Source of the DNA: Marivivens donghaensis
Lineage (GTDB): Bacteria; Pseudomonadota; Alphaproteobacteria; Rhodobacterales; Rhodobacteraceae
NCBI RefSeq assembly: GCF_023541015.1
Contig: NZ_JALNPR010000005.1
Coordinates: 1 to 64,000, forward strand
Reading direction: 5' to 3'
DNA: 64,000 nucleotides
The translations under genes were made by a program, and so were the position numbers. The notes beneath the pieces are model-generated. The model did no database searches, was not told the origin of the DNA, and saw nothing but the letters and a program-made list of their open reading frames with translations. Positions 15,567 through 33,573 of the stretch are shown here, one piece after another (position 1 is the first letter of the stretch; every line of letters begins with the position of its first letter).

Positions 15567-16679
15567 TTAAGTGCCCATGATTTCGGTCAGTGAAACAGTT
15601 CGATGTTCACGCATAGAGATTTGTGCCGCCATTCCCATCAAGATAGCCATTTTCCCGTCGTTCAAACTCACCTCCGGAGCGTTCCGTTCGCCACGGACGA
15701 GTTCAAGGAATTTCTGATGTTGGTAGAAGGTCGATCCGTTATGATCTCCAGCTTCTAGCAACGTCGGATCGACAGGTATTTCGCGCAATTCAGGACCCTT
15801 TGGTGCACGAGGACTGACGATCAGTTGGGGGATCGGCGGCTCGCCCAAATGCTCGGGCCAGAACCGTCCCGGTCCCGGCACCAGCGCCTCTACTTTGCCA
15901 GCGGGTCCGACGGCGGAAATTTCTTCCTGATATCGCGACCCTTCGGCGAACATGCAGAGTTCCAGCATTGCGCGCACGCCGTTAGCGAAATCGACAATCA
16001 CATAGCCATTGTCGAGGATATCAGGCGTTTCACCTGCATAGGATTCTTCGAGGTGGTTGGCATCCTGACCACCTGACGCCATCACGCGGATCGGTTCAGA
16101 CTGTATCGCGAGGCGCATCAGGTCAAAGAAGTGGCAGCATTTCTCGACGAAGGTGCCGCCTGTGTAGCGATTAAAGCGGTTCCAATCCCCCACCTTTTCC
16201 AAGAACGGAAAACGGTGTTCACGAATGGTTAGCATTTTTACTCCGCCAGTCGCGTCGTCCAAGCACTCCAGAAGTGCAGCGACTGGTGGCATGTAGCGAT
16301 ATTCCATCGCGACCCAAACTGGTGCGGGATATGTTTCGATAAACGTGTTTAGACGCGCAAGGTGGTCTGGGTCGGTGAAGAGCGGCTTTTCCACGAGAAT
16401 TGGTACAGGCCGCTTTGCGCCAATCATCTCGAGCTGCTCGATATGACGGAAGTTTGGGCTTGCAATCAGAATACAATCGAGGTGCTCGGCCTCCAAAAGC
16501 GCGTCGATACTATCGACAAATTTGGCATCGGGTGCGAATTTCGCGGCCTCTGCTTGCATGCCTGTGTCAGGCTCAAAGATTACGGACACCTTCGTATCGG
16601 GCAAGAGCGCGATATTACGGAGGTGTTCCTGACCCATCATGCCGCAGCCGATGATGCCGTAGTGCGTGGTGGTGGACAT
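15567..16679 (-). CDS. Gfo/Idh/MocA-family oxidoreductase; candidate NAD-dependent sulfoquinovosidase
   Basis: 370-residue protein with a Rossmann N-terminus (YGIIGCGMMGQEHLRNIA), the family EKP motif (PILVEKPLF) and the conserved catalytic-domain segment (GTFVEKCCHFFDLMRLA). Most relatives oxidise sugars or inositols with NAD(P). Its position matters: it shares a strand with, and lies next to, a GntR/UTRA regulator that diverges from what looks like a sulfoquinovose desulfonation operon lacking a GH31 sulfoquinovosidase. A subgroup of this superfamily (GH188, SqgA-type) cleaves sulfoquinovosides by an NAD-dependent oxidation-elimination mechanism, so that is my preferred guess. A plain sugar dehydrogenase remains possible. 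The regulator gene lies 9 bp upstream. Confidence 0.8.
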   Translation of the reverse strand: MSTTTHYGIIGCGMMGQEHLRNIALLPDTKVSVIFEPDTGMQAEAAKFAPDAKFVDSIDALLEAEHLDCILIASPNFRHIEQLEMIGAKRPVPILVEKPLFTDPDHLARLNTFIETYPAPVWVAMEYRYMPPVAALLECLDDATGGVKMLTIREHRFPFLEKVGDWNRFNRYTGGTFVEKCCHFFDLMRLAIQSEPIRVMASGGQDANHLEESYAGETPDILDNGYVIVDFANGVRAMLELCMFAEGSRYQEEISAVGPAGKVEALVPGPGRFWPEHLGEPPIPQLIVSPRAPKGPELREIPVDPTLLEAGDHNGSTFYQHQKFLELVRGERNAPEVSLNDGKMAILMGMAAQISMREHRTVSLTEIMGT

Positions 16680-16688
16680 GTCCTCTCC

Positions 16689-17411
16689 CTATTTCAGGCG
16701 CTGCACGTAGCGCGCCGTTGTGTGGTCAAACCAAGTGCGTGAGAATTCGACGGTGCCGACCTGTTCGGAGTGGCTAAACCGTTCGATAAATCCGATGGGG
16801 GTGCCGATGGGCTTGGGAAATTCGTTCGGAGACCAATCGGGGACCGAATCCACACCGACCGAGTCTTCCGCTCTCGAAATCCAAAACCCTAGCTGCATCT
16901 TGTAGTAGCGGTAGAGTGAATCAGAGAGTTCAGTGGCCTTGATTCGACCCGCCGAGCCGTCCAGCCAAATCTCTTCGACAGCGATTGGTACACGATTGAG
17001 ATACCTCAGTCGCCGAATGCGATTGGCACGGTCTGACTGGCCGAATTCTGGTAAATCGTTCGGTTTCCTAAGGTCATCTACGGATAAAATCCGCGCAGTA
17101 GGAAGACCACCACCTGTCCGCAATTCGAGCCGGAACATAGAGTAGACGCTATCGACATTCTGGCTCGATCGGACATAGTTTCCCGAACCTTGGATTCGCT
17201 CGATAAGCCCCTTATTTTCTAATATATCCAATGCCTTGCGGAGTGTTCGGACGGTGGTGAAATGCTCTTTGGCGAGCTCGCGTTCGGGTGGCAAACGGGT
17301 GCCGTCAATCAGGCGTCCGGACGCAATTTCGCGGATCAGCACTTCGCTGATCTGGACATAAATTGGCAGCCCGCTGGAGGCCTCGCTCTTTGAGTAGATG
17401 GTCTGCGGCAT
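16689..17411 (-). CDS. GntR-family regulator, HutC/UTRA type
   Basis: 240 residues from the ATG at 17411 (MPQTIYSKSEASSGLPIYVQ); the open frame reaches 17480. The GntR winged helix covers about residues 15-80 (EVLIREIASGRLIDGTRLPP, TVRTLRKALDILENKGLI, wing RIQGSGNYVRSS). The C-terminal UTRA ligand domain fits a sugar or carboxylate effector (RANRIRRLRYLNRVPIAVEE, VGTVEFSRTWFDHTTARYV). It likely represses both its own unit, with the oxidoreductase, and the divergent monooxygenase operon through a palindrome at 17439. Confidence 0.87.
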   Translation of the reverse strand: MPQTIYSKSEASSGLPIYVQISEVLIREIASGRLIDGTRLPPERELAKEHFTTVRTLRKALDILENKGLIERIQGSGNYVRSSQNVDSVYSMFRLELRTGGGLPTARILSVDDLRKPNDLPEFGQSDRANRIRRLRYLNRVPIAVEEIWLDGSAGRIKATELSDSLYRYYKMQLGFWISRAEDSVGVDSVPDWSPNEFPKPIGTPIGFIERFSHSEQVGTVEFSRTWFDHTTARYVQRLK

Positions 17412-17438
17412 TGTGTCCGATAAAAAATTGATACACCA

Positions 17439-17452
17439 TTGATCCAGATCAA
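17439..17452. promoter_or_regulatory. TTGATC-CA-GATCAA palindrome, candidate operator of the sulfoquinovose operon
   Basis: A perfect 6+2+6 dyad lies in the 125-bp region between the GntR/UTRA gene and the monooxygenase gene. A further half-site-like TTGAT lies 11 bp upstream (17428-17432). The spacing suits a dimeric GntR regulator, placing control of both transcription units at one site. Confidence 0.55.
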
Positions 17453-17536
17453 AGACACTGTTAGCGATAAAGAAAGTCAAGCGGTTTCTGAGGAGAGGGG
17501 CAGCATGACTGGAGCGCCAAAACAGGGGAGTTGGTC

Positions 17537-18691
17537 ATGGGTGTTGTTCCCGTTACATCCGAAGATCTGGATGCAGTCGAAGTGTCGTGGTTCGCGGCGC
17601 TGTGTTCGGATGATTATCAATTCCTTGGCGTTCCGGATGGATCGCTGCGGTCTTCGTGGGCGCATTGTTCTGAAATCGTAAAAACCGCCGAAGAGCAGGG
17701 GTTCCGTAACATCCTGTGTCCGTCCTCCTATCAAGTCGGACAGGACACGCTGAGCTTTGTTGCGGGCTGTGCTCCGATCACGTCCAAGATCAATATGCTG
17801 GCCGCTGTGCGATGCGGGGAAATGCAACCGATCATGCTCGCTCGCACGATTGCGACGCTTGATCACATGCTCGAAGGTCGTTTGACGGTAAACATCATTT
17901 CGTCGGACTTTCCTGGCGAAGTTGCGGATAGCAGCTATCGTTATCAGCGGTCCCGCGAAGTCGTTGAAATTCTCAAACAGGCTTGGACCCAAGACGAAAT
18001 CAATCACGCGGGCAACGTTTACAATTTCACGGGCATGACGACCGATCCGGTACGTCCTTATCAAACCGGTGGCCCGCTTTTGTACTTCGGGGGCTACTCG
18101 CCTGATGCGCTCGAGCTATGTGGACAACATTGTGATGTGTATCTGATGTGGCCCGAAAAAATGGAAGAAATCGAAGGACGTATGAAAGCCGTTCACGCCG
18201 TGGCTGACCGCTATGGACGGACGCTGGACTACGGTCTGCGCGTGCATGTCATCGTGCGAGACACCGAAGCCGAGGCTCGCGAGTATGCTGATTACATCGT
18301 GTCAAAGCTGGATGACGACAAGGGCACAGCCATTCGCAATCGTGCGCAGGACGCGAAATCTCTAGGTGTGAGCCATCAGGCCAAAAACCGTGAAATCGCA
18401 GACGATCATGGCTACATCGAACAGAACCTCTGGACGGGTGTTGGTCGTGCCCGCTCAGGCTGCGGGGCAGCGATTGTCGGATCGACCGATCAGGTGCTGA
18501 GCAAGCTAGAAGCTTATCAAAAGATGGGCATCCGCGCGTTTGTTCTGTCGGGTTATCCGCATTTGGACGAAGCCAAACACTTCGGCTCGCGTGTTCTACC
18601 GCAGATGAAAACCTGTTCCCTTCCTCACGCCTATGGCCGCGTTCCAGCGTCAACCCCAGCAACCCCACTCGGAATTGGAGAGCGCCGCTGA
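17537..18691 (+). CDS. smoC: LLM-class flavin-dependent monooxygenase, probable sulfoquinovose monooxygenase
   Basis: 384-residue luciferase-like monooxygenase of the alkanesulfonate monooxygenase (SsuD) type. It would use reduced FMN and oxygen to break a C-S bond, releasing sulfite and leaving an aldehyde. Family features: the internal barrel strands (INMLAAVRCGEMQPIMLART, RLTVNIISSDFPGEV), the SREVVEILKQAW helix, GGYSPDALELCGQHCDVYLMW, and the C-terminal VGSTDQVLSKLEAYQKMG and FVLSGYPHLDEA segments. The ATG at 17537 follows AGGGGAG. Downstream are an aldo/keto reductase, a flavin reductase and a sugar-type importer, not a taurine/sulfonate-type importer; this order matches the sulfo-SMO pathway. 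Sulfoquinovose as substrate is inferred from context. Confidence 0.82.
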   Translation: MGVVPVTSEDLDAVEVSWFAALCSDDYQFLGVPDGSLRSSWAHCSEIVKTAEEQGFRNILCPSSYQVGQDTLSFVAGCAPITSKINMLAAVRCGEMQPIMLARTIATLDHMLEGRLTVNIISSDFPGEVADSSYRYQRSREVVEILKQAWTQDEINHAGNVYNFTGMTTDPVRPYQTGGPLLYFGGYSPDALELCGQHCDVYLMWPEKMEEIEGRMKAVHAVADRYGRTLDYGLRVHVIVRDTEAEAREYADYIVSKLDDDKGTAIRNRAQDAKSLGVSHQAKNREIADDHGYIEQNLWTGVGRARSGCGAAIVGSTDQVLSKLEAYQKMGIRAFVLSGYPHLDEAKHFGSRVLPQMKTCSLPHAYGRVPASTPATPLGIGERR

Positions 18692-19584
18692 TGATGCCGC
18701 GTGTTGATATCGCCCCTGACCTTACGTTTAGCCGCCTGATTTATGGCATGTGGCGTTTGGCTGATGATGCCGATACGTCGGTGAGCCACGTCGAGGCCAA
18801 GATCCAGTCGTGCTTAGAGCAAGGGATCACCACGTTTGATCAGGCCGACATCTACGGTGGCTACACAACCGAAGACGTCTTGGGCGCAGCCTTGCGCGCT
18901 AATCATTCGCTACGTGATCAGATGGAGATTGTCACCAAATGCGATATCGTGGCGCCCGTTGGTCGCTACGAGAATGCTCCGGTTAAGTACTACGATACGT
19001 CGCGTGCTCACATTCTGAAATCGGTTGATCTTTCGCTAAAAGCGATGGGGATCGATCATATCGACCTCTTGCTGATCCATCGTCCTGATCCTCTGATGGA
19101 TCACCACGAAACCGGCATGGCGCTGGATGAAGTCGTCAAGAGCGGAAAGGTCCGCGCAGTTGGCGTGTCGAATTTCCGCCCTTGGGATTGGCAGTTACTG
19201 CAATCGGGCATGAAGACCCAGTTGGTGACGAACCAGATCGAGGTGTCTCTGTCTGCAGTCTCGCCCTTTACGAACGGCGATGTAGCGTTCCACCAACAGC
19301 ACGGTCAGCCGATCATGGCGTGGTCGCCTCTGGGTGGCGGGGCTTTGATGTCAGATGGTGGTCTTTTGGGGCAGCGTCTCGATGCGATCGCTTCTGCACA
19401 GGGTGTCGATCGCGCGGCGGTCGCCATCGCGTTCCTGTTGCGTCATCCCGCTAACATTTTGCCAGTCCTTGGCACGAATAGTCTGGGACGGATTGCTACG
19501 ATTTCAGAAGCCCTGAGGGTTGAGTTGGATCGCCCGACTTGGTTCTCTCTCTACGAGGCGGCGTTGGGGCAGGAGGTTCCATGA
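18691..19584 (+). CDS. smoB: Aldo/keto reductase, probable 6-oxo-glucose reductase
   Basis: 297-residue AKR of the YdhF-like type. The catalytic tetrad is visible: aspartate and tyrosine in TTFDQADIYGGY, lysine in EIVTKCD, histidine in LLLIHRPDP. The NADPH-binding end has VLGTNSLGRIATISEA. In the sulfo-SMO pathway such an enzyme reduces 6-oxo-glucose, the product of desulfonation, to glucose. It overlaps the monooxygenase gene by one base and the flavin reductase gene by four, so all three are translationally coupled. The product assignment rests on this context; the family itself is broad. Confidence 0.82.
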   Translation: MMPRVDIAPDLTFSRLIYGMWRLADDADTSVSHVEAKIQSCLEQGITTFDQADIYGGYTTEDVLGAALRANHSLRDQMEIVTKCDIVAPVGRYENAPVKYYDTSRAHILKSVDLSLKAMGIDHIDLLLIHRPDPLMDHHETGMALDEVVKSGKVRAVGVSNFRPWDWQLLQSGMKTQLVTNQIEVSLSAVSPFTNGDVAFHQQHGQPIMAWSPLGGGALMSDGGLLGQRLDAIASAQGVDRAAVAIAFLLRHPANILPVLGTNSLGRIATISEALRVELDRPTWFSLYEAALGQEVP

Positions 19585-20102
19585 CCGAACTTTTGCCGAC
19601 CAAAACAATCCAGCATTTCGTTCCAAGTGAGCAAACACAGCGTTCGTTGCGCGATGCCTTTGGGCGGTTCGCAACGGGTGTGACTGTCGTGACAGTCGGC
19701 ACGGATGAGGGACCAATCGCGATCACAGCGAACAGTTTCGCTTCGGTCTCAATGGAGCCGCCATTGGTGCTGTGGTCTCCACAAAAGTCGTCGAAACGCT
19801 CGCAGTACTTTTTGAATGCAAAGTATTTCGCGATCCACATTCTGGCCGCGGATCAGGACGATCTGTGCTGGCGCGTCGCTAAAGATATGAATGCGCTGTC
19901 TGGACTTGATTTGGTCGAAAACTCCGAAGGTGTGCCTTTGATCGATGGCTGTCTTGCTCGGTTCGAGTGCAGTCAATACGCGGTTCATGACGGAGGAGAT
20001 CATGACATAATTGTTGGAAGAGTGCTGCGCGCGGCCTTTGTGGAGGAAGGCGACGGGCTGGGCTTTTTCAAAGGGAAGATGAACCGGATTGTGACCCAAT
20101 AG
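19581..20102 (+). CDS. smoA: NAD(P)H:flavin reductase partner of the monooxygenase
   Basis: 173-residue flavin reductase of the FMN-binding split-barrel type that feeds reduced FMN to the LLM monooxygenase. Typical motifs: LRDAFGRFATGVTVVTV, ITANSFASVSMEPPLVLWSP, FAIHILAADQDDLC, and the HDIIVGRVLRA end segment with a conserved aspartate-histidine area. The start at 19581 overlaps the AKR stop (ATGA); the frame open to 19539 lies inside that gene. Two-component monooxygenases are often encoded with their reductase, which supports the operon reading. Confidence 0.88.
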   Translation: MTELLPTKTIQHFVPSEQTQRSLRDAFGRFATGVTVVTVGTDEGPIAITANSFASVSMEPPLVLWSPQKSSKRSQYFLNAKYFAIHILAADQDDLCWRVAKDMNALSGLDLVENSEGVPLIDGCLARFECSQYAVHDGGDHDIIVGRVLRAAFVEEGDGLGFFKGKMNRIVTQ

Positions 20103-20177
20103 CCCGAGGAGGGGCGGGTATCCGGACAAAAGAGTGATGGGCGCGCAGTGTCCAGAGCAACCAAACGGGAGGAAACT

Positions 20178-21443
20178 ATGAAAAAACTGACAGCTTCGAC
20201 GGCTATGTCGATTGCTCTTTTTGCTGGCGCATCTGTTGCGTGGGCAGATGAGATTACTTTTCTATGCTACCAAGACGCCAACGAATGTGACGTGATTGCA
20301 GGCATGCTGCCTGCGTTTACCGAACAGACCGGCCACACCGTGAAATTGGAAACGGTTGGTTACGATGTCATCCGTGACCAATTGGAAAACCAGCTTCAAA
20401 CAGATGCGGCGCCTGACGTTGCACGGGTTACAAACCTTGGCGGTTTGAACCAGTACTACCTTGATCTCGCACCCTATGTAGATGGCGCGGCATGGGAAGC
20501 ATCCTATGGCGCAACACTGCCGTGGTTCCGTCAACCCGGTGGTGCCGATCAGGGCATTTACGGCTGGATGACGCAGCTCACCGTGACTGGTCCGTTCGTG
20601 AACGTATCCCTCTTTGAGGATGCGGGCGTCGACATGCCGGGTGACGGCGCGACCTGGGATGACTGGGCGGCTGCTCTGTTGGAGGTCAAAGAGGCAACTG
20701 GCATCACTGCAGGTCTTGCAATGGACCGCACGGCACACCGCTGGGCTGGTCCAGCGTTCAGCTATGGCGCAAAGTTCTTTGATGATAGCGGCAACCCGAT
20801 CCTCGTTGACGACGGCTTCCGCAAATACGCAGAGGTCTTTGTAGGCTGGCACCAGAGTGGTCTTATGCCCGCAGAGGGTTGGCCGGCAGGCGAGGGCACT
20901 CAGTATCGCAACGCGGCTCCGCTGTTCCAGTCGGGTGACGTTGCTATGCATATGTCGGGTTCGTGGATGATCAACAGCTATGCTGAGAACATCTCTGATT
21001 TCGACTGGAAAGCTGTCCCTGCGCCGTGTGGTGATGGTGGCTGTGGCGCAATGCCCGGTGGTGCTGCTGTTGTAGCGTTCAAATCGACCAAGTCGCCTGA
21101 GGCTTCTGCTGCATTGATCGACTTCCTTGCTGCCGAAGAAAACGCAGCGGCATTTGCTGCGCAGACAAAGAACATCACTGCGCATCAGGGCCTTCAGGAA
21201 TCTGGTATTGATTATGCGGATGCGTCTCCTGCAGTCGCTGCGGCTTTGTCGGTCTTTGCGGCAAACGCAGGTAAGGCGGCTCAGACCACACCGCAGGCCT
21301 ATACCTTCCAAGGCTACGCTAAGAACTTTGTCATCTATGGTGTGATCCCTGATTACATCACCAAAGCCATCACAGGCGAGATGACCTTGGACGAAGCACT
21401 GGCTGCCATCGACGCGGATGTTGCCGCGAAGATCGCAGAATAA
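20178..21443 (+). CDS. smoF: Sugar-type ABC transporter substrate-binding protein, probable sulfoquinovosyl-glycerol binder
   Basis: 421-residue periplasmic binding protein of the carbohydrate (MalE-like) cluster. The signal peptide is KKLTASTAMSIALFAGAS with cleavage after AWA. The ATG at 20178 follows GGGAGGAAA; an upstream frame to 20148 has no site. Features include TDAAPDVARVTNLGGLNQYY, GDVAMHMSGSWMINSY and a cysteine pair in APCGDGGCGAMPGG, resembling my memory of SmoF-like binders. It is encoded 75 bp after the flavin reductase gene and starts the transporter block. The ligand is inferred from the neighbours. Confidence 0.82.
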   Translation: MKKLTASTAMSIALFAGASVAWADEITFLCYQDANECDVIAGMLPAFTEQTGHTVKLETVGYDVIRDQLENQLQTDAAPDVARVTNLGGLNQYYLDLAPYVDGAAWEASYGATLPWFRQPGGADQGIYGWMTQLTVTGPFVNVSLFEDAGVDMPGDGATWDDWAAALLEVKEATGITAGLAMDRTAHRWAGPAFSYGAKFFDDSGNPILVDDGFRKYAEVFVGWHQSGLMPAEGWPAGEGTQYRNAAPLFQSGDVAMHMSGSWMINSYAENISDFDWKAVPAPCGDGGCGAMPGGAAVVAFKSTKSPEASAALIDFLAAEENAAAFAAQTKNITAHQGLQESGIDYADASPAVAAALSVFAANAGKAAQTTPQAYTFQGYAKNFVIYGVIPDYITKAITGEMTLDEALAAIDADVAAKIAE

Positions 21444-21461
21444 CCCAGCGGAGGCATTCGT

Positions 21462-22526
21462 ATGACAGAGGCGCTTCACGCCGCGTTTGCGGGTGCCCCA
21501 TGGCCACTTTATCTGCTGGTCTATTTACTCATCGGTTGGGCGCTCTTGCGCCCAACTGGCCCCTTGTGGGACCGTGCAGTCAGCGTGATTGGCTGGCCGA
21601 TTGAGATGACACAGAAGCTGGCAGGCGCAACGGGGCTCCCATACTTGTTTCTCTTGCCTAATATGTTGATCTTTGGGGCATTTACCTTTGCGCCCATGTT
21701 TATCAACTTCGGCTTCTCGGTCACCGAAGGCCAGTCAATCTTGTTTTCAGAACGCGATTGGGCGGGGCTAGATAACTTGCGTCGTTTGCTGTCTGAGACA
21801 CAGATCGATACGGGCGCACCCAACCTCGAAGACGATAAATTCCTTGGTGCCGTCTACGCGACAGCCACATTTGTCGTGTTCCAAGTGCCAATCATGATCG
21901 CGGTTGCTTTGATTTCTGCCTTGGCGCTGAACCGCAAAATTGTAGCCCGCGGGTTCTGGCGAGCAGTCTTTTTCTACCCAGTAATGCTGTCGCCAGTGGT
22001 TGTCGGCTTCTTGTGGTCTCTGATCCTGAAACGGCAAGGTGTGCTGTCGCAAACCTTAATGATGTGGGGCTGGATTGATGAACCGATCCAATGGCTGACG
22101 GACCCATCTTGGACAATGTTCTGGTCCGTTTTTGTCTACACATGGGCGCACCTTGGATTTTATATGTTGATCCTCCTCGCTGGACTGCAGGCAATCCCCC
22201 GTGATGTCTATGAGGCGGCCGAGATGGACGGAACGTCGGCGTGGCGCCAGTTGACGCGGATCACCATTCCGCTCCTTGCGCCGACCCTACTGGTCGTGAC
22301 GGTTCTTTCACTGATTAAAGCCTTCCAAGCCTTTGAAGAGCTTTACGCCATGTCGGTTCGGTGGACCTCTCTCGTGGGTTACATCTTCGAAGCATCAGGC
22401 CTTCGCGGACAACCAACAGCCAACGGATTGGGGATTGCGGCGATGGCATCGCTCTTGGTCGCGATTGTCTTGATCTTCCTCTCCCTTCTCCAAGTTTACC
22501 TTTCGTCGAAATCGAGCAAAGCATGA
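21462..22526 (+). CDS. smoE: Sugar-type ABC transporter permease (MalF class)
   Basis: 354-residue inner-membrane permease. An N-terminal extension contains an extra hydrophobic segment (LYLLVYLLIGWALLRP), then the standard six-helix core starting at about residue 65 (LPYLFLLPNMLIFGAFTFAP). The EAA loop is present (IPRDVYEAAEMDGTSAWRQL). Extracytoplasmic material of about 50 residues follows the first core helix. It is 18 bp after the binding-protein gene with a GGAGG site, and its stop overlaps the next permease gene. It pairs with that permease to form the transport channel. Confidence 0.85.
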   Translation: MTEALHAAFAGAPWPLYLLVYLLIGWALLRPTGPLWDRAVSVIGWPIEMTQKLAGATGLPYLFLLPNMLIFGAFTFAPMFINFGFSVTEGQSILFSERDWAGLDNLRRLLSETQIDTGAPNLEDDKFLGAVYATATFVVFQVPIMIAVALISALALNRKIVARGFWRAVFFYPVMLSPVVVGFLWSLILKRQGVLSQTLMMWGWIDEPIQWLTDPSWTMFWSVFVYTWAHLGFYMLILLAGLQAIPRDVYEAAEMDGTSAWRQLTRITIPLLAPTLLVVTVLSLIKAFQAFEELYAMSVRWTSLVGYIFEASGLRGQPTANGLGIAAMASLLVAIVLIFLSLLQVYLSSKSSKA

Positions 22527-23959
22527 ACGCAGTAACCACTTTTCTAACGCGTAAAGCGGGCGGACAGCGGGCGAATTGGCTCGATTATCTGACCTATGCA
22601 TATCTGCTGTCTGGGGTGTTGCTGATCCTCTTGCCGGTGGCGTGGCTGGCGCTCAATTCGTTGAAGTCCTCGTCGCAGCTGGAAAAACAGGATCTGTCGC
22701 TTCTGCCGACGTCGTTCGAAACCGTTGCACGGGCAACGGTGTCTTACCCAGACGGAAACCAGATCTTCTTCATCCCAGATTTGCCGCAGTGGGTATTGAA
22801 TTGGGGTGACCTGTCCGACGACGAACGCGCTGCGCGGGATGTCTCAGAATTCCTGAGCGGTTTTGAAGGTCGTGACCTCTATGCGCTGCGGTCGCACCTA
22901 GGTCAGGTTCCGTCGCTCGTTCGGGATCTGATCGAAGCGAAGAATTTGCCGGAATGGATCGTTCGCTATCCGTCGATGTCAGCCAGCGCGCGCGGCGAAT
23001 ACGATCTGGATGGTGTGTTGACGTCTCTCAACACCGAAGACGTCCGCCTCTTGTCCGAATATCTGAACCTCGAACCATACGAACCAGCGCGGCTTGCGTT
23101 GCAGGTTTTGGTCACGGCACCTGACCCAGTGACGGGCGTGGAAACGGAGTTCGGCATTTCCAACTTCAAAGCAACCCGAGACTTCACGCCTGCGCGATAT
23201 GTCAACAACCGCAATGATGATGTTGTGCGTTTGGATACGGCGTCCATCACCATGCGGCGAACCCTCGATCCGAGTTGGGAAAACTTCACAGATCCGGTTA
23301 TAGGGCGCGCGTTTGGTGTGAACGTCAACTTTGCCACCTGTTTCACCAATTCCGTCTTAGTCACTGTGATTGCGACTGTTCTAACGTTGTTGATCAACTC
23401 GATGGCTGCCTTTGCATTGGCAAAGTATAAATTCCGCGGTCAGGTCGCGTTCTTTATCGTGATCTTGGCAACCCTTATGGTGCCACCGACCATCACGCTC
23501 GTTGGGGTGTTCAAGGCTGTCTACGCGACAGGGTTGTCGGGATCAATTTGGGGCGTGATCATTCCGGGGGCTGCAACACCAACCGGTGTGTTCCTGTTGC
23601 GCCAATACATGCTGTCGATCCCTGATGAGCTGATTGAGGCAGCGCGTATGGATGCAGCATCCGAGTGGAAGGTCTATTGGCGTATTATTCTGCCTCTAGC
23701 ACTCCCTGCGATTGCTGCTCTCGCGATCCTGTCCGTCATTTGGCGGTGGAACGACCTTATTCTTCCTCTTGTGGCTATCGCCACCACCAAAGAGGCTTAC
23801 ACCATCCAACTCTGCCTGCTGGAGTTTCGTGGTGAACACCTGAGCCAAGAGCATTATCGACTTGCCATGACCATGGTTAGCCTCGTGCCTTCCACGCTCG
23901 TTTTCGTGTTCCTCCAGAAATACATCACCACAGGCATCGCCAATACGGGGCTGAAATAA
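22523..23959 (+). CDS. smoG: Sugar-type ABC transporter permease (MalG class) with a large periplasmic insertion
   Basis: 478 residues, against about 280-300 for a standard MalG-type subunit. The ATG at 22523 overlaps the previous stop (ATGA); the frame open from 22361 lies in the upstream gene. The first membrane helix is at about residues 30-46 (LLSGVLLILLPVAWLAL). About 200 mostly polar residues follow (50-265, including DDERAARDVSEFLSGFEG and DVRLLSEYLNLEPYEP). Then come five normal core helices (NSVLVTVIATVLTLLINSMA onward) and the EAA loop (IPDELIEAARMDAASEWKVY). The extra domain should be periplasmic and could dock the binding protein. Confidence 0.85.
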   Translation: MNAVTTFLTRKAGGQRANWLDYLTYAYLLSGVLLILLPVAWLALNSLKSSSQLEKQDLSLLPTSFETVARATVSYPDGNQIFFIPDLPQWVLNWGDLSDDERAARDVSEFLSGFEGRDLYALRSHLGQVPSLVRDLIEAKNLPEWIVRYPSMSASARGEYDLDGVLTSLNTEDVRLLSEYLNLEPYEPARLALQVLVTAPDPVTGVETEFGISNFKATRDFTPARYVNNRNDDVVRLDTASITMRRTLDPSWENFTDPVIGRAFGVNVNFATCFTNSVLVTVIATVLTLLINSMAAFALAKYKFRGQVAFFIVILATLMVPPTITLVGVFKAVYATGLSGSIWGVIIPGAATPTGVFLLRQYMLSIPDELIEAARMDAASEWKVYWRIILPLALPAIAALAILSVIWRWNDLILPLVAIATTKEAYTIQLCLLEFRGEHLSQEHYRLAMTMVSLVPSTLVFVFLQKYITTGIANTGLK

Positions 23960-25023
23960 TGACTGATCTCGTCCTTTCCAAAGTTGTGAAACACTACGGT
24001 GCGGTTGAGGTCATTCATGGCATCGACATGGAAATCGCCTCGGGGGAGTTTTGCGTCTTCGTCGGGCCTTCGGGTTGCGGGAAGTCTACGCTCTTGCGCA
24101 TGATTTCTGGACTCGAGAGCATCACGGACGGCGAAGTTCGAATTGATGGGGAAGTAGTGAACCATGTGCCCGCGTCGCAGCGTGGGCTGGCAATGGTATT
24201 CCAATCCTATGCTCTCTATCCTCATATGTCGGTGAGAAAGAACCTGAGTTTTGGCCTCGAAAACCTGCATACGCCGAAAGCCGAGATCGCAAAGCGGGTA
24301 GAGGACGCAGCACGTATGCTGCAGATCGAAGACTACCTAGATCGTCGACCCGGCCAGCTTTCTGGAGGGCAGCGTCAGCGCGTTGCAATCGGGCGCGCGG
24401 TGGTTCGAGAACCCAAAGTATTCTTGTTTGACGAGCCTCTCTCGAACCTCGATGCAGAACTGCGTGTGAACATGCGACGCGAGATTGCCAATCTGCACCG
24501 CCGGTTGGGGAACACGATGATTTACGTCACCCATGATCAGGTCGAAGCTATGACTATGGCCGACAAGATTGCGGTGCTTCGTGCAGGTAAGGTTGAACAA
24601 TTCGGAACGCCGCTTGAGCTGTTCAATGCGCCAAAGAACCGATTTGTCGCGGGCTTCATCGGATCTCCGTCAATGAACTTTGTGACTGCGACGATTGCGG
24701 ACGGTGGCGTAAAACTCAGCGACGGAACCCATCTGAACATCGATCGCACCCGGGCCGGTGTTGCCACTGGTGACGCTGTCGAAGTGGGATTTAGGCCCCG
24801 TGATCTGGCGATTGACGATACTGGACCGCTCGCACTGACCGTCACCGAAGTCGAACAATTGGGATCGGAAAGCTATGTCTTCGGCGAACTGGCAACGGGC
24901 CAAACAGTGACGGTTCATCAATCTGGACAGACATCAGTCAAGATTGGAGCTGTTGTTAAACTGTCTGTATCACCCTCGGCCCTTTACATATTCCGACAAG
25001 ACACTGGTCTCGCATGTTACTAA
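23959..25023 (+). CDS. smoH: Sugar-type ABC transporter ATP-binding protein (MalK/UgpC-like)
   Basis: 354-residue cytoplasmic ATPase. Walker [11 protein letters not shown]-loop VFQSYALYPHMSV, signature [14 protein letters not shown], Walker [16 protein letters not shown] and switch histidine [11 protein letters not shown] are all intact. A C-terminal MOP/TOBE-like regulatory domain follows from about residue 240 (VEVGFRPRDLAI, LTVTEVEQLGSESYVFGEL). It starts on the last base of the preceding permease gene and overlaps the next gene by ten bases. It powers the importer encoded upstream. Confidence 0.88.
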   Translation: MTDLVLSKVVKHYGAVEVIHGIDMEIASGEFCVFVGPSGCGKSTLLRMISGLESITDGEVRIDGEVVNHVPASQRGLAMVFQSYALYPHMSVRKNLSFGLENLHTPKAEIAKRVEDAARMLQIEDYLDRRPGQLSGGQRQRVAIGRAVVREPKVFLFDEPLSNLDAELRVNMRREIANLHRRLGNTMIYVTHDQVEAMTMADKIAVLRAGKVEQFGTPLELFNAPKNRFVAGFIGSPSMNFVTATIADGGVKLSDGTHLNIDRTRAGVATGDAVEVGFRPRDLAIDDTGPLALTVTEVEQLGSESYVFGELATGQTVTVHQSGQTSVKIGAVVKLSVSPSALYIFRQDTGLACY

Positions 25024-26003
25024 CAGCCGCTCGCGCCAAAGGCGTCGCGCCGGGTTTGTTCATGGCCTTATTGGTCGCGATGGCGGCGCAATTCTTGTCG
25101 GACCATTACGGCGCGCCTGTCATGTTGATGGCGATCCTTTTGGGGATACCGTTCCAGTTTCTGTCAAACGACCCTCGTATGGGCGAGGGTATCAATTTCG
25201 CGGCTAAATCTATTCTACGGATCGGGGTAGCCCTCTTGGGGCTCAGAGTAAGTGTTGAACTGCTTTGGCAAATCGGACCGACCTTTGCTGTGTTGATTGC
25301 ATTCGGTGTTGTGCTGACAATCGCCATTGGCATCTTAACAGCCAGTATCTTTGGCAAAGACTACGCGTTCGGATTTCTGGCGGGAGGATCGGTTGCCATT
25401 TGTGGCGCATCTGCAGCCCTCGCATTGGCGAGCCTTCTGCCTAAACATGAAAAAAGCGAAACCAACCTGACGTTCACTGTGGTTTCAGTGACCGTCGCAT
25501 CGACTGTTGCGATGATCGTCTATCCTATCTCGGCATCCTTGGTTGGTTTTGACGATAGATTGGCTGGAATATTCTTGGGCGGCACGATCCACGATGTTGC
25601 TCAGGTCGTCGGCGCCGGATTTTCGATGTCTGATGAAACTGGCGAAGTTGCGACACTGATCAAGCTGTTCCGCGTGACGATGTTGGCGCCTGTCGTCTTT
25701 GTCGGGGCACTCGTCTTGCGGAAAAATGCGCCCGCTGAAACTGCTCCCCCGATCGTACCGATGTTCGTACTCGTGTTTATTGCGCTGGCGGGGCTGAATT
25801 CCCTCCACGTTTTCCCTATAGCTTTGATTGAATATTCCAATCAGCTGTCACGTGCTTGTTTGATTACGGCTGTAGCTGCGGTCGGGATGAAGACATCGCT
25901 TCAGGATTTGCAGAAGGTTGGCGGTGGGGCCGTTGGTTTGGTCGCGTCACTGACAGCGTTCTTAGCAATATTCGTGATGCTGGGGGTGTTGGCGTTCGGC
26001 TGA
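25014..26003 (+). CDS. YeiH-family (PSE) membrane protein, candidate sulfite exporter
   Basis: 329-residue protein with about ten hydrophobic helices, of the putative sulfate exporter (UPF0324/YeiH) family. Family landmarks: FAAKSILRIGVALLGLRVS, LAGGSVAICGASAALALASL, IFLGGTIHDVAQVVGAG and KLFRVTMLAPVVF. It overlaps the ATPase gene by ten bases, so it belongs to the same operon. Desulfonation yields one sulfite per sulfoquinovose, which must leave or be oxidised. In the described sulfo-SMO clusters a different family provides an exporter, so this YeiH protein looks like a functional substitute. That role is inferred. Confidence 0.82.
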   Translation: MLLTAARAKGVAPGLFMALLVAMAAQFLSDHYGAPVMLMAILLGIPFQFLSNDPRMGEGINFAAKSILRIGVALLGLRVSVELLWQIGPTFAVLIAFGVVLTIAIGILTASIFGKDYAFGFLAGGSVAICGASAALALASLLPKHEKSETNLTFTVVSVTVASTVAMIVYPISASLVGFDDRLAGIFLGGTIHDVAQVVGAGFSMSDETGEVATLIKLFRVTMLAPVVFVGALVLRKNAPAETAPPIVPMFVLVFIALAGLNSLHVFPIALIEYSNQLSRACLITAVAAVGMKTSLQDLQKVGGGAVGLVASLTAFLAIFVMLGVLAFG

Positions 26004-26018
26004 CGTTTGGGGGCAAGG

Positions 26019-27587
26019 ATGACTGATCAGATGCATGACCTGTTTATCATTGGCGGCGGGATCAATGGCTGCGGGATTGCCCGTGATGCCGCGGGTCGTG
26101 GTCTGTCGGTTGTTCTGGCAGAGCAGGGGGATCTGGCATCGGCCACGTCCTCTGCATCGACCAAGCTATTCCACGGTGGTCTGCGGTATCTTGAGTATTT
26201 TGAGTTCCGTTTGGTTCGCGAGGCCCTGATTGAACGCGAGACGCTCTTGCAGGCGATGCCGCACATTTCATGGCCGATGCGGTTTGTGTTGCCGTATCAC
26301 GCCTCGATGCGGTTCGAGGGTGCGACACCGACCTCACGGTTGTTGAATGTCGTAATGCCGTGGATGAAGGGACGAAGGCCCGCGTGGCTCATTCGGTTGG
26401 GACTTTTCCTCTATGATCATCTGGGCGGACGTAAGATTTTGCCGCCCACGCAGGTGGTTGATTTAACGACCGCTGTGGAAGGGAAGCCGCTCCACTCCAA
26501 ATTCGAAACGGCTTACGAATATTCCGATTGCTGGGTCGAGGACGCGCGGCTTGTTGCGTTAAATGCACGCGATGCGGTGAACCGTGGGGCGCGCATTTTG
26601 ACCCGCACAAAGGTGATCGCGGCTGATCGACTGAAGGATCATTGGGTCATCACGTTAGAGGACGTAGAGACGGGGGAACACCGCACCGAACGGGCGCGGA
26701 TGCTGATCAATGCGGCGGGGCCGTGGGTTGGCAATGTGATCGCAAATACCCTGCGCCTCAACTCTCGCGATGGGGTGCGTTTGGTGCGCGGCAGCCATAT
26801 CGTGACCAAGCGTCTCTATGATCACGATAAATGCTATTTCTTCCAAGGGACCGATGGGCGGATCATTTTTGCCATTCCCTATGAGACGGACTTTACCCTG
26901 ATCGGGACCACGGACGCGGAACACCACGATGTTTCAGAAAAGCCGCGCTGCACGGAAGAAGAACGCGATTATCTGATCCGTTTTGCCAACGGCTATTTCA
27001 AACGCCAGCTTACAGCCGACGATGTTGTCTGGACCTACTCGGGCGTTCGGCCGCTCTACGATGATGGGTCCAGTTCTGCGACGGCCGCGACGCGGGATTA
27101 CACGCTGAAGGTCGATGATACGGGCGGGGCTCCGATCCTCAATATTTTCGGGGGTAAGATCACGACCTATAGGCGCCTAGCTGAGGCCGCTATGGCGAAG
27201 GTCAAAGGCTATGTCCCAGACCTAAAACCTGATTGGACAGCTGGCGTTCCGCTGCCGGGTGGCGATTTCCCTGTCGATGGGGTGGACCATTTGATCGTCG
27301 AGGCAAAGATACAGTTTCCGTTCCTCGATGACCGTTTGATTAGACGATTGGTGCGTGGATATGGCACCGACCTCTGGGCGATCCTTGGGCAGGCTAGATC
27401 GATTGAAGAGCTCGGTCAGCACTTCGGAGCGACGCTCTATGAGGCCGAAGTGAACTGGTTGATGGAGCACGAATTCGCGCGAGAGGCCGAGGATGTCCTT
27501 TGGCGCCGGACCAAGCTTGGCCTAAGGTTCGAGGACGCAGAGGTGGAAGCGCTCGATGCGTGGATGCGGGATAAGAGGAGGTACTGA
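26019..27587 (+). CDS. glpD: Glycerol-3-phosphate dehydrogenase, FAD-dependent
   Basis: 522-residue membrane-associated flavoenzyme that oxidises sn-glycerol 3-phosphate to dihydroxyacetone phosphate and passes electrons to quinone. The FAD-binding loop ([19 protein letters not shown]), the [20 protein letters not shown] segment and [14 protein letters not shown] are diagnostic. The ATG at 26019 is preferred to the one at 26007 because [14 protein letters not shown] is the usual N-terminus. It follows the YeiH gene by 15 bp and precedes glpK by 2 bp, which ties glycerol oxidation to the sulfoquinovose operon. Confidence 0.94.
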
Positions 27588-27589
27588 GG

Positions 27590-29101
27590 ATGCCGTCAAA
27601 ACAGTATATTCTGGCGATTGACCAAGGAACGACCTCATCGCGGGCCATCCTCTTTGATGCGGATATGACCATCGCGGCGAGCGCCCAAGAAGAATTCCCA
27701 CAACACTTCCCTCAGTCGGGATGGGTCGAACATGATCCGAGCGACCTCTGGACAACGGTTGTCGACACGGCGCGTGGGGCGTTGGAACAGGCCAGTGCGT
27801 CAGCAGACCAAGTGGCTGCAATCGGCATCACCAATCAGCGCGAAACGACCTTGGTTTGGGACCGCACCACAGGCGAACCCGTCTACAATGCGATTGTTTG
27901 GCAGGATCGTCGCACGGCAGAGTTTTGCCGCGACCTGACCGCTGCGGGCCACGCAGAGATGATCACGGATCGGACGGGTCTGCTCGTTGATCCGTATTTT
28001 TCTGCGACCAAGGTGAAGTGGATTTTGGATCACGTCGATGGTGCGCGGGACAAGGCGCGGCGCGGTGATCTGCTCTTTGGCACCGTGGATAGCTACCTGA
28101 TCTGGAAGCTGACCGGCGGCGCGTCCCATGTGACTGATGCGACCAATGCGGCGCGCACGATGCTCTACGATATTCATAAAGGACGGTGGAGCCAGACGAT
28201 CTGCGATCTCTTTGATATTCCGATGGCAATGCTGCCCGAGGTCAAAGACTGCGCTGCTGAGTTTGGGACAACGCAGGCCGATCTGTTCGGCGCGCCCATC
28301 CCGATCACGGGCGTTGCGGGAGATCAGCAGGCGGCGACGGTCGGCCAAGCGTGCTTTGAACCCGGTATGATGAAATCGACCTATGGTACGGGCTGCTTTG
28401 CGCTGTTGAACACCGGCGACGTGCCCGTGCGGTCGAACAATCGCCTGCTCACAACGATTGCGTATCAATTGAATGGCAAGCCGACCTATGCCCTCGAAGG
28501 ATCGATTTTTATCGCAGGTGCGGTGGTGCAATGGTTGAGGGATGGTCTACAAATCATCGACAACGCGTCAGAAACGCAATCCCTCGCTCAGAGTGCAGAC
28601 GAAGGCCAAGACGTCATCCTCGTGCCCGCTTTCACAGGGTTGGGTGCGCCCTATTGGAACCCCGATTGCAGGGGCGCGATCTTTGGCCTGACACGCAATT
28701 CCGGTCCTGCGGAACTATCAAAGGCGGCACTCGAAAGTGTTGGGTTCCAGACGCGCGACCTCTTGGAGGCGATGAAAGCGGATTGGAGCACGGATGAGGC
28801 CACAGCCACCCTGCGGGTCGATGGCGGGATGACGGCCTCTGATTGGACGATGCAATTCCTCGCCGACATCATTGGTGCCCCCGTCGATCGGCCTGAAGTC
28901 CTTGAAACCACCGCGCTCGGGGCGGCGTGGTTGGCTGGCCAATTCGTCGGCTTCTATCCTGAACAGGTTACCTTCGCGCGCCGCTGGAAGGTCGACACAC
29001 GTTTTGAACCCGCAATGGAGGACACGGTCAGAGACCGACGTTACGCAGCATGGAAACGCGCGGTCGCCGCGACGATGACTGCTGTATCATCCAGCCAATA
29101 G
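27590..29101 (+). CDS. glpK: Glycerol kinase
   Basis: 503-residue FGGY-family kinase that phosphorylates glycerol to glycerol 3-phosphate. Signatures include the phosphate-binding [67 protein letters not shown] and [18 protein letters not shown]; the length is normal. It is the last gene of the ten-gene plus-strand unit, with only 2 bp to glpD. It would capture glycerol freed from sulfoquinovosyl-glycerol, and its product feeds GlpD. The next gene (LacI) is on the other strand. Confidence 0.96.
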
Positions 29102-29259: not shown

Positions 29260-30252
29260 TCAATGCGTTGCGCGGAGAACGAGTTCAGCATCGAGCCACT
29301 TGGTTTCGCCTGCGCGATCAGGTTCGGCCTCGCGCGCCATAAGGAGGTCTATCGTCCCTTTCACCAACGGCTCGATTGGATTGCGTAGGGTGGTAAGTGC
29401 CATGTTCGGCCACTCCGCCATTGAGATATCGTCGAACCCTGTCACCGCGATCTCTTCGGGCACAGAAGTGCCTTTTTCCTTAAGGTACATCAAAGCGCCC
29501 AGCGCCATTGCATCGTTAGCGCACACCAATGCATCAATGTCCGCCAGATCGGTACATGCCTGCATGGCGTTAAACCCACCCATAACGGAGTAATCGCCAT
29601 AAAGCCGTGAAACAGGTTCTAGGTGATGCGCTTTCAGTGTCTCTTCAAACCCGCCGTAGCGTTCACCCGTGGACCAAAATGCGTCTGGTCCTGAAAGATA
29701 AGCAAATTTCCGGCGACCTTGCTTAATAAGGTGTTCTGTCATCACCGCCATGGCCTCGCGATTTCGGACGCAGATGTTATCGACGTTTGGCCCATCCACG
29801 ATGCGGCCTGATGAAATCACTGGAATGCCGAGCTTTAGGCAGGATGACACGACATCCGCACCGAGGCTCCCTGACCGGAGGATCATCGCTTCGAGCGGAT
29901 AGCGAAGGACGTTCTGAATGGCGGCTTTTGCCGCATCGCCAGACCCGCCGACAACGATGGGCCATTTGCCCGCAGCGTTGAGACCGTTGATCAACGCGGT
30001 CGCGACTTCTTTGTCGTAGTGGTTTGGCATTTCGCCGACAAAGATCGCGACGAGGTTTGACCCTGCCCCCTGCAAACTGGCCGCAAGGGCATTTGGACGA
30101 TACCCCAATTCATCGGCAGCTTTTAGGATGCGGGTTTTCTTGTCAGCATCCAGATATGCGCCCTCGGTAAAGGCGCGGGACACAGCGGATCGAGACACAT
30201 CCGCGAGCTTTGCCACATCAGCCGCGGTGACCCGACGTTTTTGACCAGTCAT
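29260..30252 (-). CDS. LacI-family transcriptional regulator
   Basis: 330 residues: an N-terminal LacI helix-turn-helix (VTAADVAKLADVSRSAVSRA) and hinge helix (RPNALAASLQG), then a periplasmic-binding-protein-like sensor domain (VAIFVGEMPNHYDKEVATAL, VCANDAMALGALMYLKEKG, VTGFDDISMAEWPNMALTTL). It diverges from ugpB with a 200-bp spacer containing the palindrome TGAACACGTGTGCA, so it probably controls the ugp operon and perhaps itself. The effector would be a sugar or polyol such as glycerol 3-phosphate, but this is not shown. Confidence 0.9.
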   Translation of the reverse strand: MTGQKRRVTAADVAKLADVSRSAVSRAFTEGAYLDADKKTRILKAADELGYRPNALAASLQGAGSNLVAIFVGEMPNHYDKEVATALINGLNAAGKWPIVVGGSGDAAKAAIQNVLRYPLEAMILRSGSLGADVVSSCLKLGIPVISSGRIVDGPNVDNICVRNREAMAVMTEHLIKQGRRKFAYLSGPDAFWSTGERYGGFEETLKAHHLEPVSRLYGDYSVMGGFNAMQACTDLADIDALVCANDAMALGALMYLKEKGTSVPEEIAVTGFDDISMAEWPNMALTTLRNPIEPLVKGTIDLLMAREAEPDRAGETKWLDAELVLRATH

Positions 30253-30299
30253 GAAAAAATGCTCTCCGCGTCACTTTGGCGTTACACAGCATCGGTATA

Positions 30300-30313
30300 T
30301 GAACACGTGTGCA
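30300..30313. promoter_or_regulatory. LacI-type operator candidate, TGAACACGTGTGCA
   Basis: A near-perfect 14-bp palindrome with a central CG, the pattern bound by LacI-family repressors. It lies 48 bp before the lacI-like start and 140 bp before ugpB, in the shared intergenic region. Confidence 0.55.
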
Positions 30314-30452
30314 GATGGTGTGCAAGCGGAATCAATGCGCTGCGGCTGTCTGGCAAAACTCTGACCCGCGCTGGGTCCGAACCTGCCATCGCGTCCACAT
30401 TTGAGGGCGTTGTCTAACCCAAGGCCATGACGGCTTTGATTGGAGAATGAGA

Positions 30453-31754
30453 ATGAAACACCTGTCTTTTGTTTCGGCTGCCGCCCTCGCGCTGGTTGCC
30501 AATACTGCTTTTGCTGAAACTGAAATTACTTGGTGGCACGCAATGGGCGGCAAACTGGGTGACACCGTCAACCAGATCGCTGCTGACTTTAACGCGAGCC
30601 AAGACGAATACACCATCACGCCAGTGTTCAAAGGTTCTTACGAAGAGACCCTCACCGCTGGTATCGCGGCGTTCCGCGCGGGTGAACAGCCGAACATCAT
30701 GCAGGTGTTTGACGCTGGCGCTGCAACCGTGATCGGCGCAAAAGGCGCAACTGTTCCGGTTCAGGACCTTCTCGAAGCAAACGGCGTTGAGTTTGACATC
30801 AACGACTACATCTCTGGCGTTCGTTACTTCTACGCTGACGCAGATGGCAAAATGATCGGCATGCCGTTCAACTCGTCCTCGCCGATCATGTACTTCAACG
30901 TCGACGCTCTGGCAGCTGCTGGTGTTGAAGCGCCGAAAACTTGGGAAGAGTTTGAAACTGTAACCGCACCTGCACTGGTTGCTGCTGGGTACATCCCGCT
31001 CGCAGAATCCCACTCCCCGTGGATTTTTGTTGAGAATTTCATGTCCCGCCACAACCTGCCGTTCGCAACGAACGACAACGGTTACACTGGCGTTGACACC
31101 CAGATCCTCGTCAACTCTGACGAACTGAAAATGCATTGGACCAACGTTAAAGAATGGCTCGATGAGGGCTACTTTGGCTGGTACGGCGCTTCGTGGGACG
31201 ACAACCAAGCACCGTTTGAAGAAGGCAAAGTTGCACTGTGGATGGGCTCTTCGGGTTCGTTCGGTGGCCTGATGCAGAAAGACCTGCCGTTTGAATTTTC
31301 GGCAACCTACCTGCCGTATTGGGAATCGATCACCACGGAGCCGACCCAGACCTTTATCGGTGGCGCATCGCTCTTTGCTATGGCTGGTCAGTCTGACGAA
31401 GAAAACGCAGCAACTGCAGCGTTCTTTGACTACCTGACTTCGCCAGAAGTCCAGTACATGTGGCACCGTGAAACCGGCTATGTGCCGATCACCACTGCGG
31501 CCTACGAAATGGCAAAAGCTGACGGTCACTACGATCGCTTTCCTGCTGCCGAAGTTGGCATCCAGCAGCTTTCGCTCGCTTCTGGTGAGAACACCAAAGG
31601 CTACCGCCTGGGCTTCTACGTTCAGATCCGCGACGTGATGAACCGTGAATTCGGCCGCATCCTGACGGGTGAGACCTCGGTTGATGACGCATTCGCAACC
31701 ATTGAAACCGAAGCAAACGAGCTCCTGTCGCGCTTTGCGATGACCCAAGGTTAA
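30453..31754 (+). CDS. ugpB: sn-Glycerol-3-phosphate ABC transporter substrate-binding protein
   Basis: 433-residue periplasmic binding protein with signal peptide KHLSFVSAAALALVANTAFA. UgpB features: ITWWHAMGGKLGDTVNQIA, FKGSYEETLTAGIAAFRAGE, MPFNSSSPIMYFNVDAL, GASLFAMAGQS and WHRETGYVPIT. The ATG at 30453 follows GGAG by seven bases; the one at 30447 is too close. It starts the ugpBAEC operon, and its high use of preferred codons suggests strong expression. It would bind glycerol 3-phosphate or glycerophosphodiesters. Confidence 0.93.
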   Translation: MKHLSFVSAAALALVANTAFAETEITWWHAMGGKLGDTVNQIAADFNASQDEYTITPVFKGSYEETLTAGIAAFRAGEQPNIMQVFDAGAATVIGAKGATVPVQDLLEANGVEFDINDYISGVRYFYADADGKMIGMPFNSSSPIMYFNVDALAAAGVEAPKTWEEFETVTAPALVAAGYIPLAESHSPWIFVENFMSRHNLPFATNDNGYTGVDTQILVNSDELKMHWTNVKEWLDEGYFGWYGASWDDNQAPFEEGKVALWMGSSGSFGGLMQKDLPFEFSATYLPYWESITTEPTQTFIGGASLFAMAGQSDEENAATAAFFDYLTSPEVQYMWHRETGYVPITTAAYEMAKADGHYDRFPAAEVGIQQLSLASGENTKGYRLGFYVQIRDVMNREFGRILTGETSVDDAFATIETEANELLSRFAMTQG

Positions 31755-31773
31755 TCGCTTAGCTCAGACACCG

Positions 31774-31801
31774 CTGGCGGCTGCAGAAATGCGGCCGCCA
31801 G
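31774..31801 (+). terminator. Hairpin between ugpB and ugpA (attenuator-like)
   Basis: CTGGCGGC and GCCGCCAG form a perfect 8-bp stem followed by a T-rich run (TATTTTAG), 20 bp after the ugpB stop and just before the ugpA ribosome binding site. It probably lowers expression of the membrane components relative to the binding protein. Confidence 0.7.
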
Positions 31802-31821
31802 TCCATATTTTAGGGGGTTTC

Positions 31822-32703: not shown

Positions 32704-32711
32704 GGATCACG

Positions 32712-33563: not shown

Positions 33564-33573
33564 GGAATTTACC

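Follow-up and report, generated by a model that had tools for sequence, protein, structure and literature searches.

A probable sulfoquinovosyl glycerol utilisation locus of the sulfo-SMO type, with glycerol genes at the end of its operon, in Marivivens donghaensis

A 64,000-nucleotide stretch of the Marivivens donghaensis genome (positions 1 to 64,000 of NZ_JALNPR010000005.1, part of contig C7 in a genome of 2.84 Mb; hereafter the window) carries at 17537-29101 a run of ten plus-strand genes, from the monooxygenase gene smoC to the glycerol kinase gene glpK, and, 125 bp upstream with the gntR start chosen here, a divergent two-gene arm, gntR-sqgA (15567-17411, minus strand). The two arms probably constitute a locus for the utilisation of sulfoquinovosyl glycerol (SQGro) by a pathway of the sulfoquinovose (SQ) monooxygenase (sulfo-SMO) type, in which the terminal glpD-glpK pair would consume the glycerol half of the substrate. 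The parts of this system are known, and the predicted chemistry of the sugar half is known as well; the assembly with glycerol genes inside the operon is a rare variant, for which SQGro is the likely substrate. The sequence basis of this reading covers the genes, their families and order, the conserved residues of the sulfoquinovosidase, a conserved element between the arms, and the rarity of the arrangement. The features are as follows.

15567-16679, minus strand: sqgA, NAD+-dependent sulfoquinovosidase of glycoside hydrolase family 188 (GH188) type, Gfo/Idh/MocA fold, 370 amino acids (PDB matches, conserved residues, Pfam)
16689-17411, minus strand: gntR, regulator of GntR-UTRA type that reads away from the operon, with ATG 17411 taken as its start (PF00392 and PF07702)
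17428-17457, plus strand: conserved element TTGATACACCATTGATCCAGATCAAAGACA, promoter/operator-like and placed between the arms, with core TTGATRCACYATTGAT
17537-18691, plus strand: smoC, flavin mononucleotide (FMN)-dependent SQ monooxygenase (706/695 bits to 7olf/7oh2; PF00296)
18691-19584, plus strand: smoB, aldo/keto reductase, 6-oxo-glucose reductase (399 bits to 7bby/7bbz; PF00248)
19581-20102, plus strand: smoA, flavin reductase (PF01613; FerA-type, 195 bits, below the cut-off of 260)
20178-21443, plus strand: periplasmic sugar-binding protein resembling MalE and not recognisable as SmoF (PF01547/PF13416)
21462-22526, plus strand: ATP-binding cassette (ABC) permease 1 (PF00528)
22529-23959, plus strand: ABC permease 2 (PF00528 at residues 293-468 of 476, preceded by a long stretch)
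23959-25023, plus strand: ABC ATPase of UgpC/MalK type (NF008653, 471.4 bits, cut-off 432; PF00005)
25014-26003, plus strand: YeiH-family exporter, probably of sulfite (PF03601, 202.2 bits; TIGR00698, 121.6 bits, below the cut-off of 232.6)
26019-27587, plus strand: glpD, glycerol-3-phosphate dehydrogenase, second copy (767.5 bits, NCBIfam cut-off 360)
27590-29101, plus strand: glpK, glycerol kinase, second copy (704.1 bits, NCBIfam cut-off 590.35)

All ten genes of the operon are open and intact, and the gaps between them are, in order, -1, -4, 75, 18, 2, -1, -10, 15 and 2 bp, so that the genes, strand, order, families and largest gap of 75 bp given in the original prediction are reproduced by Pfam, NCBIfam and the coordinates. 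The further claim of a single unit holds for the ten contiguous genes but not for a unit that stands by itself, because the gntR-sqgA arm, which had gone unmentioned, is the key neighbour and belongs to the same locus. Co-transcription of the ten genes is suggested only by their spacing; promoter-like sites (5, compared with a mean of 7.9 in shuffled sequences) and terminator-like sites (16, compared with 14.9) both occur at chance level.

Desulfonation enzymes and the divergent sulfoquinovosidase

The assignment to the sulfo-SMO pathway, already made in the original prediction, withstands the comparison of the monooxygenase with alkanesulfonate enzymes, the matches of both SmoC and SmoB lying far above those of other families. 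The monooxygenase scores 706 bits against PDB chain 7olf and 695 bits against 7oh2, compared with 184 bits for the best chain of SsuD type, and for the aldo/keto reductase the top chains are 7bby/7bbz at 399 bits, the next best reaching 205 bits; although these chains carry other names, 7olf/7oh2 are taken to be SmoC and 7bby/7bbz to be SmoB of the SQ monooxygenase pathway. The flavin reductase (19581-20102) contains the PF01613 domain, and neither NCBIfam nor a further search gave a match to any entry recognised as SmoA. In the accessible text of PMC13372026 the working definition of the sulfo-SMO pathway is the co-location of SmoB and SmoC, and in the window the smoB gene (18691-19584) directly adjoins smoC (17537-18691). 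Elsewhere, in genomes G407, G540 and G750, matches resembling SmoC at 53-54% identity each contain one in-frame TGA; they are among 12 matches whose identity lies at 49-54%.

The protein encoded by sqgA scores 542 bits against PDB chain 8zn9 and 357 and 356 bits against 8qc2 and 8qc3, of which 8QC2 is described in PMC11465081 as the GH188 crystal structure. The eight SQ-contacting residues of ArSqgA that the accessible part of PMC10755693 names (K107, Y136, R166, L170, K172, E189, H193 and H321) are all identical in the window protein, as K98, Y127, R156, L160, K162, E179, H183 and H313; six of the eight were mapped by script, an offset of 13 separating the numbering of the paper from that of the chain, and K98 and H313 by hand on the alignment. 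At the same offset, Glu163 of the ArSqgA paper maps to a non-conserved position, with a conserved Glu one residue beyond. Both the family sequence (357 bits to 8qc2) and the eight residues thus place the protein in GH188, a family that the same source, as far as its text was available, describes as near-universal in Roseobacter sulfo-SMO clusters. A search of the genome with PF01055 found no sulfoquinovosidase of family GH31, its sole hit (25 bits) lying in a protein that matches alpha-galactosidases in the PDB (309 bits).

Since the window SqgA opens almost directly with its Rossmann motif, it should be cytosolic, in which case SQGro would enter the cell whole and glycerol would be freed inside it. 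The predicted splitting of SQGro into SQ and glycerol would explain the presence of glpK and glpD in the unit, and the proposal that SQ-glycerol is the natural substrate is better supported than when it was first made because the divergent neighbour is a sulfoquinovosidase of GH188 type. In the pathway so envisaged, the ABC importer would take SQGro into the cell, where SqgA, judging from its family and residues, would cleave it by transient C3 oxidation with bound NAD+. By analogy with relatives, SmoA would provide the reduced flavin with which SmoC would free sulfite from SQ to give 6-oxo-glucose, SmoB would reduce the latter to glucose, and the YeiH-type protein would export the sulfite. 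GlpK would phosphorylate the freed glycerol and GlpD would oxidise glycerol-3-phosphate to dihydroxyacetone phosphate, and with these two steps both halves of SQGro would feed central metabolism. The added pair would also place the glycerol half under SQ control, apart from the other glp operon of the genome.

The distinction between uptake of free SQ and uptake of its glyceride sets which carbon and sulfur marine bacteria obtain; the output of sulfoquinovose is put at about 10 billion tons a year in the accessible text of PMC10755693. The combination of an importer, a sulfoquinovosidase, desulfonation and glycerol use in one locus speaks for the glyceride and lends itself to a clean genetic test. 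The suggestion of a marine heterotroph that feeds on phytoplankton lipid fits the Roseobacter-type relatives of the locus.

Occurrence of the glycerol genes and their alternative explanations

The glpD gene follows yeiH after 15 bp and glpK follows glpD after 2 bp, both genes being intact and above their NCBIfam cut-offs. The genome contains another complete pair on contig C3, with a glpD (23448-25001) that is 70% identical and a glpK (25004-26479) that is 73% identical to the window copies, and with a divergent upstream gene that appears by eye to encode a regulator of DeoR type; the pair in the operon is therefore extra. The operon pair may or may not derive from this other glp operon: a GlpD tree does not group the two copies of the genome, but it leaves 18 of its 31 inner branches open, with a bootstrap that had yet to settle; the HIMB11-type pair stands apart in it (100/100). 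Also on C3, at about 267.8-268.1 kb (L130:9786-10115), lies a decayed remnant in which short YeiH, GlpD and GlpK pieces are fused in that order, which makes it appear that a second copy of the operon tail once existed elsewhere in the genome; its GlpK piece is 87-90% identical to the window GlpK, and the sister genome G003 has no such GlpK piece.

Five of the seven genomes of the genus contain smoC, G001 and G002 being those without it, and a full-length GlpK at 72-74% identity is encoded elsewhere in all seven. The whole operon including its tail is found in G003, where the in-operon glpD (L123:16523-18100) lies in two frames with a break at about codon 370-380, either from decay or from an assembly error. 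G004 and G005 carry the operon up to yeiH, and in G006 smoCBA and yeiH are present, followed at some distance by an importer less closely related to that of the window.

Beyond the genus, SmoC was matched at E <= 1e-120 in 164 of 394 genomes of the family and at E <= 1e-100 in 21 of 385 genomes of the class, 9 of these 21 at an identity of at least 74%. The 100 loci that were fetched comprise 96 from the 164 family genomes, taken mostly best-ranked first, and 4 from the class list, a set that left out many loci on short contigs and most lower ranks; G038, of low rank, was added because glpD was already known to lie near its smoC, and G249, for which the same was known, fell within the ranks taken. 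At the thresholds set, these loci contain sqgA in 95 cases, gntR in 97, smoB in 94 and smoA in 87, a binding protein of the window type in 3, yeiH in 8, glpD in 3 and glpK in 1, and 91 of them extend 11.5 kb past the start of smoC. A set of 80 named loci, overlapping with this survey and with flanks of up to 10 kb, gave sqgA in 78, glpD in 2 and glpK in none, with 65 loci reaching at least 10 kb past the smoC start, a distance that covers the glpD of the window and only the beginning of its glpK. Together with four loci of the genus, the comparison covers, in addition to the window, 184 SMO loci that represent 170 distinct smoC sequences.

The yeiH-glpD-glpK tail occurs in one of these 184 loci, that of G003 (L123), which bears out the earlier description of the glp linkage as unusual. 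A glpD gene lies within the stretch in 5 of the 170 distinct loci (L079/L145, L087, L123, L150 and L170), in several arrangements. It stands 80 bp after sqgA on the divergent arm in L145, the same locus as L079, and match positions give the same gntR-sqgA-glpD order in L087. In L150 it converges on sqgA and has a DeoR-like gene on its far side, the importer there being of the window's type, and in L170 it belongs to a minus-strand run of glpD, two ABC ATPase genes, permease genes, a binding protein gene and glpK that is convergent with smoCBA. A Poisson estimate, crude in that genome size and copy number enter it as rough values, gives P of 0.015-0.029 for at least 3 of the 100 loci with glpD when G038 is included. 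The linkage is rare, and glpD does not lie near SMO loci clearly more often than chance would predict.

Several points weigh against the reading of the locus as one for SQGro. Without G038, 2 of 99 loci have glpD compared with about 0.5 to 0.65 expected (P of 0.09-0.14); the tail was found in just one further genome, the one with the frameshifted glpD; no glp genes are present in the 20 kb fetched from G004 and G005; and the operon pair may be dispensable given the other glpD-glpK of the genome. The binding protein is tied to SQ by context, SQGro being its putative ligand, and the YeiH protein is probably a sulfite exporter by its family and place, with a score below the TIGR00698 cut-off. The first three of these points can also be read as favouring a standard Roseobacter sulfo-SMO cluster to which glpD and glpK were added recently or by chance, using the promoter of the operon and with no tie to SQGro, as can the confinement of the tail, among the loci compared, to the window and its near-identical sister, and the identity of the window YeiH to those of G004 and G005 (65-67%), which are 72% identical to each other. 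Against such an addition stand the intact state of the pair in the window with its gaps of 2 and 15 bp, the predicted release of glycerol by SqgA in the same cell, and the placement of glpD beside sqgA in other ways at other loci, the HIMB11-type GlpD falling on its separate branch; on balance an incidental addition seems rather unlikely. A replacement of an older yeiH by the yeiH-glpD-glpK block was also considered and is not shown by these identities, since YeiH varies widely among other loci too.

Two further explanations fare worse. The glp genes could serve the neighbouring LacI-ABC-phosphoesterase operon (29260-35606), for example as part of a glycerophosphodiester system, which would accord with its beginning 158 bp downstream, with its Exo_endo_phos protein and its binding protein of SBP_bac_8 type, and with the position of that binding protein gene in G004, only about 12 kb from smoC. 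However, this binding protein is present in all seven genus genomes (87-100%), including G001 and G002, which lack smoC, and in G005 it lies about 413 kb from smoC; no GlpD or GlpK match of G001, G002 or G004-G006 is close to it, no glycerol genes were seen beside the LacI operon in the relatives that lack the SMO genes among the seven genus genomes, and the lacI gene that glpK faces lies on the opposite strand, all of which makes this service highly improbable. The other possibility is a general sulfonate operon, the monooxygenase of which would have simple alkanesulfonates or dialkylsulfones as substrates. NCBIfam does rank alkanesulfonate monooxygenase first, and the best-matching PDB chains, here taken to be SmoC, are named methanesulfonate sulfonatase and alkanesulfonate monooxygenase; but the score of the protein in the SsuD equivalog comparison is 241.6 bits against a cut-off of 518.2, its SsuD-type chain matches reach 184 bits against 706, and smoB and sqgA accompany smoC in 94 and 95 of the 100 survey loci, so that a general sulfonate operon is extremely improbable.

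Shared control, transport and related systems

The element in the gap between the arms is conserved among the SMO loci. Of 170 distinct upstream regions, 166 contain its core TTGATRCACYATTGAT with at most 2 mismatches (exact in 117, one mismatch in 33 and two in 16), one further region having 3 mismatches and three having at least 4; with the ten regions used to draw the pattern removed, the count is 156 of 160, and in a shuffled control it is 1 of 850. The exact core occurs once in this genome, with four more sites at 2 mismatches. Because the genomes are related, these frequencies speak for conservation rather than function; the element may serve as an operator or belong to a promoter, and its location suggests shared control of both arms. 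In the window it is followed by a perfect palindrome, TTGATCCAGATCAA, which also fits the consensus of an Fnr-type box. At L190:4656 the element has a second exact copy, which lies about 1.9 kb upstream of smoC on the flank with a gene for a 46% identical binding protein.

A more ambitious proposal can be put forward tentatively, as possible rather than probable: that the locus is a self-contained regulon for both halves of SQGro. In it a single SQ-responsive GntR would work through the one conserved element to drive expression of an SQGro-binding protein of a new class, with no relation to SmoF, together with the GH188 arm, the genes for desulfonation and sulfite export, and a second glpD-glpK pair dedicated to this use; glycerol genes would have joined SQ clusters on more than one occasion. 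If this were true, SQGro rather than free SQ would be the substrate under selection in marine Rhodobacterales. The conserved element itself provides a handle on a putative shared SQ regulon across the whole bacterial family.

The binding protein could not be recognised as a relative of SmoF, contrary to what had been anticipated, whether by sequence, by a profile built from 21 relatives or by fold, among the matches listed. No SmoF or SQGro-binding entry appears among 10 phmmer hits, the 60 listed out of 82 hits with the profile, or the 50 rows listed by Foldseek (SmoF itself being presumably in the PDB); those Foldseek rows, obtained with a model of mean pLDDT (predicted local distance difference test score) 85.5, are mostly MalE-like sugar-binding proteins at 16-21% identity. 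The gene comes directly after smoA in the window, as it does in 13 loci whose binding protein is at least 77% identical. For the 476-residue permease 2 (22529-23959), matches in seven named relatives span 99-100% of its length. At L018:12667-13779 the importer seems to have collapsed, with part of the binding protein (63% identity over 42%) and a small ATPase piece between smoA and yeiH. The YeiH protein has the PF03601 domain and scores 121.6 bits in TIGR00698, compared with a cut-off of 232.6.

Among known systems, the sulfo-SMO pathway of Agrobacterium, which reportedly comprises smoA-I with a GH31 SmoI and with SmoF, shares the SmoA, SmoB and SmoC core and an ABC importer with the window, whereas the window has a GH188 enzyme instead of SmoI, no recognisable SmoF, a YeiH-type exporter and the added glp genes. 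Glycerol operons of Rhodobacterales consist of glpD-glpK pairs or of glpD with an ABC importer and glpK, and L170 has one convergent with smoCBA; the enzyme families are the same, but the window pair lies inside the SQ unit with neither a regulator nor an importer gene of its own adjoining it. The Roseobacter sulfo-SMO clusters of Kaur et al. 2023 (PMC10755693) resemble the window in that GH188 SqgA replaces the GH31 sulfoquinovosidase, and differ in that glpD and glpK are not mentioned in the accessible text of that paper, whereas the window operon ends in both. The sulfo-SFT cluster of Eubacterium rectale likewise joins a sulfoquinovosidase to a glycerol kinase, for which the authors, in the text available of PMC11968277, suggest a possible help in using SQGro-derived glycerol; it differs in its sulfoglycolysis and GH31 SftG, in contrast to the predicted oxidative desulfonation, the GH188 enzyme and the additional glpD of the window. 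According to the part of PMC10755693 available, Arthrobacter AK01, which carries SqgA, consumed the glycerol of SQGro. No published report of glpD-glpK in a sulfo-SMO cluster turned up in an incomplete search, which does not establish novelty in print. At the other end of the window, positions 1-65 contain a transfer RNA gene that is cut off by the contig end.

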